A stretch of DNA of 64,000 bases, taken from assembly GCF_001292625.1 (NCBI RefSeq), contig NZ_LAJH01000006.1, forward strand, positions 1 to 64,000, given 5' to 3'. The notes under the pieces were generated by a model. It was not told the origin of the DNA, ran no database searches, and saw only the letters and a list, made by a program, of their open reading frames with translations. Below, piece by piece: positions 5,456-62,775 of this stretch. Position 1 is the first letter of the stretch. Each line of letters opens with the position of its first letter. Source of the stretch: Shimia sp. SK013. Its GTDB lineage: Bacteria > Pseudomonadota > Alphaproteobacteria > Rhodobacterales > Rhodobacteraceae. A program made the translations under genes and the position numbers.

Positions 5456-6892
5456 GTGGCTAAGCAACCGATGTTGAAATTTGTATCTGTGGAACGTGAC
5501 ATGCCGGTGAAGCGGGATGCCAGCGTGCGCAAAGAAGATTTCAATGAAATCTATGCGGAGTTCGCCAAGGCCAAGGCCGAGGAGCAGTCAAGCCGGTGCA
5601 GCCAATGTGGTGTGCCGTATTGCCAAAGCCATTGCCCGTTGCACAACAATATCCCTGATTGGCTGCGCCTGACGGCGACGGGTCGGTTGGAAGAAGCCTA
5701 TGCTGTCAGCCAAGCCACCAACACCTTTCCGGAAATCTGTGGCCGTATCTGCCCGCAGGACCGTCTGTGTGAAGGCAACTGCGTGATTGAACAGTCCGGC
5801 CACGGCACTGTGACCATCGGCTCGGTTGAGAAATACATCACCGATACCGCGTGGGAAAAGGGGTGGGTCAAACCCGCGTCTCCGAGCCAAGAGCGCGCTG
5901 AAAGCGTTGGCATCATCGGGGCGGGTCCTGGTGGTCTGGCCGCCGCAGATCGCCTGCGTCGCGCGGGCATTCAGGTGACGATATATGACCGTTATGACCG
6001 CGCTGGCGGCTTGCTGACCTATGGCATTCCCGGCTTCAAGTTGGAGAAAGACGTGGTCATGCGTCGCAACCAGCTGCTGGCTGACGGTGGTGTGACCTTC
6101 AAGATGAACTGTGAAATTGGCACAGACATCTCTTTTGCTGAAATCCGCGCTGCGCATAACGCGGTGATTATCGCGACTGGTGTCTATAAAAGCCGTGATT
6201 TGCAAGGGCCGGGCGCCGGTGCCAAGGGCATCGTAAAGGCGATTGATTATCTGACGGCGTCCAACCGTCAGGACTTTGGCGACAGCGTGCCGGAGATCGA
6301 AAGCGGTGAGCTGAATGCCGAGGGCAAGAAGGTTGTTGTGATCGGTGGCGGCGACACCGCGATGGATTGTGTGCGCACAGCGATCCGCCAAGGCGCTGAC
6401 AGCGTGAAATGTCTGTATCGCCGCGACAAGGCCAACATGCCCGGCTCGCAGCGTGAAACGCAGAACGCCGAAGAAGAAGGTGTGGAATTTGTCTGGCTGA
6501 GCGCGCCCAAAGGGTTCACCGGCGGCGACGCCGTAGAAGGTGTGATGGTGCAGAAGATGCGTTTGGGTCAGCCCGATGCGTCGGGCCGTCAAAGCCCCGA
6601 AGTGATCGAAGGCGCGGATTATGTCGAAGAAGCCGATCTGGTGATCAAGGCGCTGGGCTTCTCTCCTGAAGATCTGCCGACCCTTTGGGACGAACCTGAG
6701 CTGGGAGTGACCCGTTGGGGCACTGTAAAGGCGCAGTTCACCACGGGTGCGACGGACCTAGAGGGCGTTTATGCGGTGGGTGACATCGTGCGCGGCGCAT
6801 CGCTTGTGGTTTGGGCCATCAAAGACGGCCGCGATTGCGCCGATGCGATTGTTGAAAAGCTGGGCGTTCCGACGGCTGTGGCCGCCGAATAA
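5456..6892 (+). CDS. gltD: Glutamate synthase (NADPH) small subunit
   Basis: 478 aa. It feeds NADPH electrons through FAD and iron-sulphur clusters to GltB, which turns glutamine plus 2-oxoglutarate into two glutamates. N-terminal Cys groups (CSQCGVPYCQSHC and CPQDRLCEGNC) bind the [4Fe-4S] clusters. FAD motif GAGPGGLAAADRL lies near residue 160 and NADPH motif GGGDTAMDC near 300. The GTG start at 5456 has a perfect AGGAGG 7 bases upstream. In this window gltD lies ahead of gltB, with two small genes between. Confidence 0.96.
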   Translation: MAKQPMLKFVSVERDMPVKRDASVRKEDFNEIYAEFAKAKAEEQSSRCSQCGVPYCQSHCPLHNNIPDWLRLTATGRLEEAYAVSQATNTFPEICGRICPQDRLCEGNCVIEQSGHGTVTIGSVEKYITDTAWEKGWVKPASPSQERAESVGIIGAGPGGLAAADRLRRAGIQVTIYDRYDRAGGLLTYGIPGFKLEKDVVMRRNQLLADGGVTFKMNCEIGTDISFAEIRAAHNAVIIATGVYKSRDLQGPGAGAKGIVKAIDYLTASNRQDFGDSVPEIESGELNAEGKKVVVIGGGDTAMDCVRTAIRQGADSVKCLYRRDKANMPGSQRETQNAEEEGVEFVWLSAPKGFTGGDAVEGVMVQKMRLGQPDASGRQSPEVIEGADYVEEADLVIKALGFSPEDLPTLWDEPELGVTRWGTVKAQFTTGATDLEGVYAVGDIVRGASLVVWAIKDGRDCADAIVEKLGVPTAVAAE

Positions 6893-6905
6893 GGCACTCG
6901 GCATC

Positions 6906-6941
6906 GCGTCGGTATTGCGTCTGTATCGCGACAGTGCCGAT
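6906..6941 (+). repeat. 36-bp intergenic repeat, copy A
   Basis: A 36-bp element 13 bp after the gltD stop. It matches 55069-55104 at 33 of 36 positions, differing only at element positions 11, 12 and 17. It opens with GCGTCGGTAT, repeats CGTC-GTAT, and ends with TATCGCGACAGTGCCGAT. In this copy GCATCG (6901-6906) and CGATGC (6938-6943) form a perfect inverted repeat around it. The next gene starts 61 bp downstream on the same strand. Role unknown. Confidence 0.75.
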
Positions 6942-7002
6942 GCACGCCCCCAAAACACGAAACGTCAGAACAGCTGACCAAGATGATGAAAAGGTAAATG
7001 GC

Positions 7003-7440
7003 ATGGTAACCCGAAGCGGACATTGCATGTGTGGCGCGGTGACTTTCACCGCGACCGACGTGTCGTCCGAATTCGGGGCCTGTTATTGCGAGATGTGCCG
7101 CCGTTGGAATGGCGACCGTTTTGTCGGGGTGCATGTGCCGATTGCCGCGATGCAGATAAACGGCGCGAACCAGATATCTACTCACAAAAGTTCGGATTGG
7201 GCCGCGCGGTCGTTCTGCAAAGCCTGCGGATCGAACCTTTGGTATCGTCTGACCGATGGGCCTGATGCTGGGAACTACTCTGTGGCGCTGGGCCTGTTTG
7301 ACGATGTGAGTGGCATGAAGCTGGCGCGGGAGTTTTTCGTGGACCGCAAGGATTGTCTGTTCGACCTGCCGGAAGGGCGGATCCAGATGACCACGGCAGA
7401 GATTAACGCGAAATATGGTTTGTCTGAGGAGGCACCATGA
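7003..7440 (+). CDS. GFA/CENP-V domain zinc protein
   Basis: 145 aa. The ATG at 7003 has AAAGG upstream; an in-frame extension to 6934 would run into the 36-bp repeat. The family (glutathione-dependent formaldehyde-activating-like, Mss4 fold) binds zinc through Cys pairs. Visible are GHCMCGAV (C8, C10), CYCEMCRRW (C29, C32) and FCKACGSNLWYR (C72, C75). Many members are mis-annotated as formaldehyde-activating enzymes; the substrate here is not evident. It sits between gltD and gltB and its stop overlaps the next start (ATGA). Confidence 0.85.
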   Translation: MVTRSGHCMCGAVTFTATDVSSEFGACYCEMCRRWNGDRFVGVHVPIAAMQINGANQISTHKSSDWAARSFCKACGSNLWYRLTDGPDAGNYSVALGLFDDVSGMKLAREFFVDRKDCLFDLPEGRIQMTTAEINAKYGLSEEAP

Positions 7441-54982: not shown

Positions 54983-55068
54983 GGTTCCAAGTTGCGCCCA
55001 CATGGTAAATCAAAGGTTAACGAAGTAACGGCAGCCCCAATCCTTGAGCGAAAACCCTTGTCTGTAAC

Positions 55069-55104
55069 GCGTCGGTATATCGTCGGTATCGCGACAGTGC
55101 CGAT
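55069..55104 (+). repeat. 36-bp intergenic repeat, copy B
   Basis: Matches 6906-6941 at 33 of 36 positions. Same parts: GCGTCGGTAT, CGTCGGTAT, then CGCGACAGTGCCGAT, with TCGGTA/TGCCGA able to pair. It lies between divergent radC and the binding-protein gene, 85 bp upstream of the latter and in the same orientation to it as copy A is to its downstream gene. Confidence 0.75.
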
Positions 55105-55189
55105 TTCGGTTGTCCGATGCTGGTTTCGGTGGGACAGTTGCCGCAGTTTGGCGCGCCGCAACGGTGATCCACAATTGGCGGAGACATCC

Positions 55190-56026
55190 ATGCGACTTTT
55201 CTTTGCGGCCCTAATCGCTGTTTTTTCGACCAGCGTTGTGCAGGCCCAAACCATCGACCGGATTCTAGAACGCAACGAGATCCGGCTTGGGTTTCGTTCG
55301 GATGCGCCGCCGGTGTCGTTCCAACTGGAAGACGGGTCGCCCACCGGCTACACCCCCGCGCTGTGTGTGCATGTGGCGCAGGGCCTTGTGAACGTGTTGC
55401 AAGCTGACAACCTTGAGGTACAGTTTGTCGAAGTTGACGCCAGCGACCGGTTCGAAAAGGTCGCGAGCGGCGAGATAGATCTGTTGTGCGGTGTGGCGAC
55501 AATTACTTTGGAGCGACGGGCGCTGGTTGACTTCTCTATCCCAGTCTACGTCGACGGTACGTCGGTTCTTTTGCCAACGACTGCGGAGGAAGATCTGCGG
55601 ACTTTGAGCGGCAAACGCATTGGTGTCAGGCGTGACACAACCACAGATCGGACGCTGTCCCAGAAATTGGCGAGTGCTGAGATTGACGTCAAAACCACCC
55701 GCTTTGTGAACCACGAAGCCGGCATCATCGCGTTGGAGAAACGCGAGATTGACGCTTATTTTGCGGATCAGTCCATCCTTGCCGGACTTTGGATGTCGAG
55801 CCCGCGGCGCAATGAGTTGAAACTGGCGCGTGAAATTTTCACGCTGGAGAAGCAAGGCCTTGCCATGGCGCGCGGTGATGCCGATTTCCGTCTTTTGGTG
55901 GATGGCATCCTGTCCGGTTTGTATGCCAACGGTACGGTGCGCGAGACGATGGAAAAAACCATTCCCGGTCTGGTGCCGGGGCCCGGGTTGACTGCATTGT
56001 TTATGCTGGCGCCTGAGGTGGACTAA
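55190..56026 (+). CDS. Family 3 (amino-acid type) solute-binding protein
   Basis: 278 aa from ATG at 55190 (GGAG 8 bases upstream); the longer frame to 54992 runs through the repeat and is rejected. Signal peptide ends VQAQ. Domain markers: RILERNEIRLGFRSDAPPVS, GYTPALCVHVAQGLV, GEIDLLCGVATITLERRALV and FADQSILAGLW. Binds an amino acid or similar small molecule. No permease is adjacent. Confidence 0.9.
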   Translation: MRLFFAALIAVFSTSVVQAQTIDRILERNEIRLGFRSDAPPVSFQLEDGSPTGYTPALCVHVAQGLVNVLQADNLEVQFVEVDASDRFEKVASGEIDLLCGVATITLERRALVDFSIPVYVDGTSVLLPTTAEEDLRTLSGKRIGVRRDTTTDRTLSQKLASAEIDVKTTRFVNHEAGIIALEKREIDAYFADQSILAGLWMSSPRRNELKLAREIFTLEKQGLAMARGDADFRLLVDGILSGLYANGTVRETMEKTIPGLVPGPGLTALFMLAPEVD

Positions 56027-61957: not shown

Positions 61958-62775
61958 CGTTTTGCATTCCAGCTAAGAGAGGCGTGGCGTCGGGTGTAAA
62001 ATTCGCCCATCAGGCCGATCATCAACAGAACGATGCCAACCATCAGAGGATACATGACCGACGAGTTGCGCGGGAAGTAGTTGATGAAGGCAAAGCCGCG
62101 CGATTGATCAATGCAGTGAAACAGCGGGTTCCAGTCAAACATCGCCAACATAAAGCTTGGCAGGGTGTTGGCGACGAACATTTTGCCCGAAGCAATCATA
62201 TTGGCACGGGCATAGATGGTGGATGCAATCGACACAAACGTCGGAAACCACGGTTTGAGCGCGAGAAACACAGTGCCAATCGCGAGACCAGTGAACCAGC
62301 CCAACAGCAACATGCCAAAGGTCGGGATCGGTTGGTCAAACGATATCGGCGTAAAGGCGACGTGATAAACAAACAGGATCGCAAAGAGCGACAAAATTTG
62401 AATGTAGAGCGTGCCAAGCGCGGCGGACGCGATCGCGATGATCGTGTTCATCGGCGCGTGTTTCATCATGGGGGAGGACGGACCTTCTGAACCGACGACT
62501 GCGCCCAGCGTTTTGGTGTGTGTCAGAAACAGAAACACACCGGACATAAGGTAAATCAGAAAGTCGCCGCGCAAGGCCGCGCTTCGCAGGCCGAGAACCG
62601 AGAACATAACGTAGAAGGCGAGCACAAAAATGATCGCCTGAAGCATGTTCATGACAATCGACAGAACCGCATTGCCGTGTGATTTTCGCACGTCCCGCAC
62701 AATCGAGTGATAAATCAGCTCGAAGATACCAAGTGCCGACGAAAGCGTCGTTTTATGTGCAGTTTGCTGAAACAT
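61954..62775 (-). CDS. ABC-2 type permease, polysaccharide export (KpsM-like)
   Basis: 273 aa with six hydrophobic segments and the cytoplasmic start LIYHSIVRDVRKSHGNAVL typical of ABC-2 exporters of capsule or O-antigen. Absence of an ATPase gene here suggests KpsT lies elsewhere. The nearby kdsB start supports a capsule or Kdo-linked locus. Divergent from cysQ. Confidence 0.8.
   Translation of the reverse strand: MFQQTAHKTTLSSALGIFELIYHSIVRDVRKSHGNAVLSIVMNMLQAIIFVLAFYVMFSVLGLRSAALRGDFLIYLMSGVFLFLTHTKTLGAVVGSEGPSSPMMKHAPMNTIIAIASAALGTLYIQILSLFAILFVYHVAFTPISFDQPIPTFGMLLLGWFTGLAIGTVFLALKPWFPTFVSIASTIYARANMIASGKMFVANTLPSFMLAMFDWNPLFHCIDQSRGFAFINYFPRNSSVMYPLMVGIVLLMIGLMGEFYTRRHASLSWNAKR

Follow-up and report, generated by a model that had tools for sequence, protein, structure and literature searches.

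An orientation-dependent spacing rule for four-unit DNA sites dispersed through the chromosomes of Shimia and some other Rhodobacteraceae

As a rule, DNA sites scattered over bacterial genomes have come to light through their binding protein. The parS/ParB, matS/MatP, SlmA and Noc sites are bound by organizing proteins, with parS also loading SMC; they are palindromic, and either group around the origin or occur only inside, or only outside, a given region. KOPS and Chi are short, dense sequences. Architecture IMparting Sequences (AIMS), of which KOPS is an example, are described in PMC5993296 as leading-strand-biased chromosomal sequences kept by selection, in the form of abundant, degenerate octamers that rise in frequency towards the terminus. 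Short repeats are common in alphaproteobacteria, with many families of 20-100 copies, and the CGTC repetitive extragenic palindromes (REPs) have an 8-9 bp stem and a 4-5 nt loop, as given in PMC3733652, the main text of which does not contain the terms Rhodobacter, Roseobacter, Roseovarius or Ruegeria. At the yeast recombination enhancer, condensin is reported to be loaded at a defined site and to extrude a loop in one, oriented direction (PMC13144730). The present analysis concerns a site composed of four head-to-tail 11-bp units, of which two copies lie in the first 64,000 nucleotides of contig NZ_LAJH01000006.1 of Shimia sp. SK013 (the whole of this stretch being referred to as the window). 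The genome of this strain (4,049,808 bases) comprises, according to PMC4818494, a single chromosome without extrachromosomal elements. Here, it is the layout of the genome itself that reveals a rule, in that the direction of the sites sets their spacing.

The two window copies, as matched by R1, a sequence-only profile built from 30 copies, and the runs that flank the second of them are as follows:

6896 to 6939, plus strand: site 1, four 11-bp units (6896-6906, 6907-6917, 6918-6928 and 6929-6939); R1 match at 6885-6944, E 8.9e-15
55059 to 55102, plus strand: site 2, four 11-bp units (55059-55069, 55070-55080, 55081-55091 and 55092-55102); R1 match at 55049-55113, E 1.4e-16
55051 to 55054, plus strand: A-run 5' of site 2; family conservation is weak (A in 43-62% at model columns 5-8 over 88 copies)
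55104 to 55106, plus strand: T-run 3' of site 2; family conservation is weak (T in 55-67% at model columns 58-60 over 88 copies)

A search of the genome with R1 yields 88 copies at E<=1e-3, in which the units stand at fixed places between the 5' A-run and the 3' T-run. Four good units are present in 63 copies, three in 24 and two in 1, and the number of units is bounded on both sides, with an extra unit downstream of the fourth in 0/88 copies and upstream of the first in 1/88. The 42 unit columns together hold ~53 bits of information, and the pattern GTCGGTATNNCGTCNGTATCGCGACAGTGCCGAT, at up to 3 mismatches, finds 7 matches in the genome versus 0 for the reversed control. The element had been noticed in an earlier note on the window as a 36-bp intergenic repeat at 6906-6941 and 55069-55104. 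The identity claimed there, 33 of 36 bases in the same orientation, is confirmed (counted by eye), and a 20-base core with up to 3 mismatches matches the window at these two places only (0 in 100 shuffles); as to extent, the element is indeed repeated, but 36 bp is too short for four 11-bp units plus flanking A- and T-runs. The expectation of dozens of copies per genome agrees with the 88 found, and the genome-wide count that the note called for revealed further copies, so that the finding of none, which was to have counted against the element, did not occur.

The sites are not scattered at random. Among the 71 within-contig gaps of the SK013 genome (a density of one site per ~41 kb), the smallest measures 8.5 kb and the coefficient of variation is 0.62, neither of which is reached by any of 2000 random placements. 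Gap length depends on the relative orientation of the neighboring sites, with means of 16.9 kb for diverging (n=9), 39.1 kb for tandem (n=51) and 70.1 kb for converging (n=11) pairs (permutation P 5e-5); the same P is obtained with the 78 strongest sites, and also with those 78 when the gap at the terminus is removed. The largest gap (155 kb) is a converging one and lies at the inferred terminus. Because the tandem mean is near the average of the diverging and converging means, two parameters suffice, and the corresponding fit assigns 6.7 kb [0.8-11.4] to the 5' side of a site and 33.6 kb [26.2-42.0] to its 3' side. A coverage statistic, defined as the distance from a position to the nearest site pointing at it, is equaled by 6/300 shuffles in this genome and by 2/300 in G017, a relative of ~90% identity. 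Inversions were considered as the origin of sites that point the wrong way, and were rejected on the reasoning that they would not yield short diverging and long converging gaps. A search for special loci between diverging pairs (12 loci, gathering thresholds) found one tRNA and no rRNA.

The same asymmetry is seen in other genomes. The G017 fit gives 9.6 kb (5') and 36.5 kb (3'; P 5e-5), which is not independent of the SK013 result because the sites are shared. In G298, a one-contig genome of another genus, the values are 16.8 kb and 28.7 kb (P 0.006), and in G355, of yet another genus, 19.4 kb and 44.2 kb (P 0.004). For the 30 strongest of the 78 loci in G298, a homologous gene was found in the 12-kb stretches of the SK013 genome in 16 cases, and an adjacent gene arranged in the same way in 3; so few common loci mean that the G298 array has largely been placed anew. 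Three genera thus show orientation-dependent spacing, and in one, that of G298, most of the sites stand elsewhere.

Orientation also follows the replication strand in the SK013 genome, agreeing with the GC skew of the 12-kb surroundings in 81/88 copies (P 4e-17) and with third-position skew in 82/88. The leading strand is, as an established rule, G-rich, and on that basis the sites mostly point from origin to terminus, both of which were inferred from skew alone. At the 10 wrong-way sites, which point against the regional skew (for example L041, L050, L075 and L112), the local GC skew is weak. The skew step at the sites, oriented along their arrows, is +0.027 versus -0.003 expected from gene context (74/88 sites), with no clear sawtooth on the contiguous contig C12; this step is not used as an argument. 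Coding direction is unrelated to the arrows (46 with, 42 against; P 0.75).

With respect to genes, the sites are intergenic in 79/88 cases and favor gene ends. The context was classified for 77/88 sites, excluding 9 called inside open reading frames (ORFs) and 2 at contig ends, and comprises 29 convergent, 42 co-directional and 6 divergent regions, versus 48, 281 and 94, respectively, among 423 background gaps of >=50 bp in 795 kb of the same genome (chi-square P 7e-9; gene calls by a home-made codon-based finder, background including site-holding gaps). A gene 3' end adjoins 71/77 of the classified sites. Site 1 begins three bases past the stop codon (6890-6892) of ORF 5456-6892, which we take to be gltD-like, and site 2 is flanked by divergent genes, one of only 6/77 such cases. 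The proximity to start codons that the earlier note had described holds for both window copies, which end 61 bp upstream of the ATG at 7003 (read by eye; the gene finder placed that start at 7027) and 85 bp upstream of the ATG at 55190, but is not typical of the family; the positional bias to start codons that it suggested checking was not seen, divergent gaps being depleted.

The positions of the sites are conserved between close relatives, and so are particular bases within them. In G017, which holds 89 copies at E<=0.01, the comparison covered 40 sites (40/89, from the largest contig alone); each of them has an orthologous copy in SK013, and both window sites have their counterpart in G017. 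Identity per column between the two genomes increases with the amount of information that the column carries across the family (Spearman 0.80, P 2e-10), with 96% identity at 16 high-information columns versus 83% at 13 low ones. Such constraint on the invariant columns is a sign of selection on contact positions, and the element is under selection as DNA. At deeper range, a site 3' of regA, presumably an ActR/RegA-type gene, was seen by eye in 15/16 array-bearing genomes of the genus, SK013 included, being shortened in G014 and missing in G002, and outside the genus it is present in 5 of the 10 genomes that could be resolved, G290 not being among these (G371 has a partial site). The genus members with 0-2 copies, G005, G008 and G012, lack it. 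Six further site places, both window sites included, were located by both flanks in 400 kb of G005, and none matches the units above background; the 34-base scores there are 16-20 versus 26-30 in SK013, with random pieces averaging 16.8 and reaching at most 26. At locus L238 in G012, a genome with one match left, the DNA past the regA stop codon may hold a worn remnant of a site (by eye).

Arrays are patchy in Rhodobacteraceae. Within the genus, 15/18 other members carry 64-98 copies and the remaining 3 carry 0-2; among family genomes, sampled at about one per genus, 40/394 have any match and 19 have >=12. Matches occur in 7/385 genomes of the class, four from the family and three with one weak match each (both searches used stricter filters, so that counts per genome are lower bounds), and no copies were found in 12 genomes from 12 other families. 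One stringent pattern, required to match exactly, recovered 26 stretches, including some from Shimia, Roseovarius, Salinihabitans, Pseudooceanicola and a Boseongicola bin, which are matches rather than array counts.

Several kinds of known sequence could, in principle, give rise to some of these features. Polar sites that guide or protect a translocase, in the manner of KOPS for FtsK or Chi for RecBCD/AddAB, with each orientation forming its own array for a motor moving one way, would account for the agreement with GC skew in 81/88 copies, and the failure of the consensus to match plasmid and phage collections is also in their favor. By reasoning, however, independent plus and minus arrays predict diverging and converging gaps that are alike, whereas these differ in three genera; ~53 bits over 42 columns at one site per ~41 kb is unlike the short, dense KOPS or Chi, and a motor would be led astray by the mixture of orientations in G298 and G355. 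This explanation is considered unlikely. Operators of a global transcription factor acting in large-scale gene regulation are quite improbable. Proteins of the OmpR/PhoB type bind direct repeats one turn apart, boxes that the 11-bp units resemble, and both window copies stand 61-85 bp before a start codon; yet divergent regions are depleted (6/77 versus 94/423) and convergent ones enriched (29/77 versus 48/423), the sites show no tie to gene direction (46 versus 42), and their even spacing has no regulatory reason. The regulator site proposed in the earlier note is thereby disfavored. Transcription terminators or RNA elements of gene 3' ends would explain the location of the sites and the T-run past the fourth unit, and in 19/88 copies the plus-strand fold z against shuffles is below -2 (6/88 on the other strand). 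The mean z is a modest -0.92 and -0.55 on the two strands, though, and the consensus fold of 30 copies contains 7 predicted pairs with 0 compensatory changes, so that the TCGGTA/TGCCGA hairpin of the earlier note is not conserved. A perfect stem of >=8 bp occurs in 0/88 copies (mean stem 3.43 versus 3.40 in shuffles), for which reason an intrinsic terminator was rejected despite the T-run. A small-RNA-like unit or other RNA element was likewise rejected, Rfam at gathering thresholds having matched only tRNA and Cis2 sRNA in the window, neither of them at a site. Given that the direction does not depend on genes and that the spacing rule spans tens of kb, little credence can be given to transcript-end elements. 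The Cis2 sRNA match (Cis2_sRNA, RF02645, Ruegeria cis2 sRNA; 62065-62209, plus strand) scores 88 bits.

A mobile or selfish element of REP or miniature inverted-repeat transposable element (MITE) type, inserting in connection with replication and excluded near existing copies, recalls the strand bias and exclusion zones of some transposons, and the patchy distribution (40/394 family genomes) is as such an element would show. Against it stand the orthologous positions of 40/40 compared G017 sites, a regA 3' site common to several genera, constraint that follows the invariant columns, the want of a palindrome, and the distribution of the REP-type tyrosine transposase (Y1_Tnp), which has 0 matches in the SK013 genome and was matched in 7/22 genomes, array-bearing and array-free alike. 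Such an origin is very improbable, and the REP-like element of the earlier note finds no support in the stems, the transposase or the positions, which are fixed between relatives. Start sites of the pac type, from which a phage-like particle would package ~40-kb runs of host DNA by the headful, remain as a slim chance: the one-directional territory of ~29-44 kb is on the order of a phage headful, but even spacing is hard to explain in this way, and phage records gave no match to the consensus. Viral contigs gave 0 exact matches, a weak negative because the pattern used fits just 8/88 own copies, and terminase genes were not looked at; the exact pattern used for genome_contigs fits 0/88 own copies. 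In PLSDB, the 64-base consensus found no plasmid record at E<=0.01, with coverage of the plasmids of array carriers there not established; a search for repC in 11 genomes gave one match (G355).

The reading preferred here, to which we give somewhat less than an even chance, is that the sites are nucleation or loading points of a mainly one-directional activity that organizes or maintains the chromosome. It is favored because independent polar arrays of the KOPS or Chi kind do not predict the asymmetry, and because asymmetric territories imply an interplay between sites of both orientations. From the observed geometry, with which an SMC or motor loading site is compatible in that respect only, we infer protein binding, a directional activity and its character. 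A putative protein would bind one face of the helix at the four units, which are spaced by one helical turn; the bound site would then nucleate or load an activity, for example that of an SMC-type motor or of a nucleoid protein that spreads, working mainly 3'-wards, for about 29-44 kb, and to a lesser extent 5'-wards, for about 7-19 kb. The sites would tile the chromosome into territories, each with its site nearer one edge and, in SK013, mostly laid along the leading strand, and the next site would be placed with regard to the reach of the activity from the previous one. More tentative is the fuller proposal that some Rhodobacteraceae use a protein binding the four units to load or anchor a one-sided motor or a spreading filament, dividing the chromosome into ~90 asymmetric territories of ~40-45 kb; this is possible, though doubtful.

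Several observations weigh against the loading of a one-directional activity. G355 and SK013 share at least the regA site, so that the independence of G355 is not established, and G085, of a fourth genus, shows no asymmetry (21 mostly weak sites, P 0.41). Some neighboring sites are close together (4.1 kb apart in G017, 2.9 kb in G298 and 1.1 kb in G355), the global coverage statistic in G298 is no better than label shuffles (150/300 as good), and, judging by their site lists alone, the arrays of G298 and G355 seem to agree only weakly with replication. The unit region overall is no more conserved between SK013 and G017 than its flanks (90.3% versus 82-91%). The array is evolutionarily dispensable, 3/18 relatives in the genus having 0-2 copies, and the searches made, which included no gene-content comparison, found no binding protein.

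Further observations concern the surroundings of the element. The words TTAAC/GTTAA occur in the 48-bp stretches beside the sites in 26/88 cases upstream (P 7e-11) and 10/88 downstream (P 0.02), versus 20/443 other intergenic stretches, and may be a second signal belonging to the element. Many of the 30 copies read by eye in G298 (loci L136-L165) are extended on their 3' side around GGACCCGA(A/G)CGGTG, frequently with GTTAA next, possibly an addition specific to that genus. A called ORF contains a site of about three units at L094:6001-6048, and the aligned G005 DNA is without units.

If a protein explains the rule, bacterial chromosomes would have oriented, domain-setting sites, and relocating or flipping individual 45-bp sites in a marine bacterium could serve to test how such chromosomes are organized. 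The array-free close relatives provide a natural control and, through gene-content comparison, a route to the protein. Should the binder prove to be a loader of SMC or FtsK, the sites would be a novel form of an already known kind.

Among the matches listed, the open-access literature searched gave no description of these sites, and what is new is the combination of architecture and spacing rule, which was found in none of the families tested. Compared with AIMS and KOPS, the leading-strand bias is shared (81/88 by GC skew); in place of abundant octamers there is a four-unit site of ~45 bp in 88 copies, the largest gap (155 kb, converging) coincides with the inferred terminus, and orientation governs the spacing. 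With the CGTC REPs, the element has in common that it is a short chromosomal repeat with dozens of copies and a CGTC tetranucleotide, and it differs in that such a stem is present in 0/88 copies; nor does the SK013 genome contain the Y1_Tnp match that accompanies GTAG-type REPs, and the shifting of position between close relatives that marks mobile elements was seen at none of the 40 orthologous sites. Sites of the parS and matS type differ from the present ones, which have head-to-tail units, no long stem and a spread over the whole chromosome. The closest likeness in kind is to the yeast recombination enhancer, where activity likewise proceeds in one direction from a defined site, as is proposed here for a motor that we can only suppose; that enhancer is one eukaryotic locus, and no sequence relation is claimed. 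If the fuller proposal is true, bacteria would have their own equivalent of oriented loop-extrusion sites, in a system that some lineages have lost, with the subsequent disappearance of their sites.
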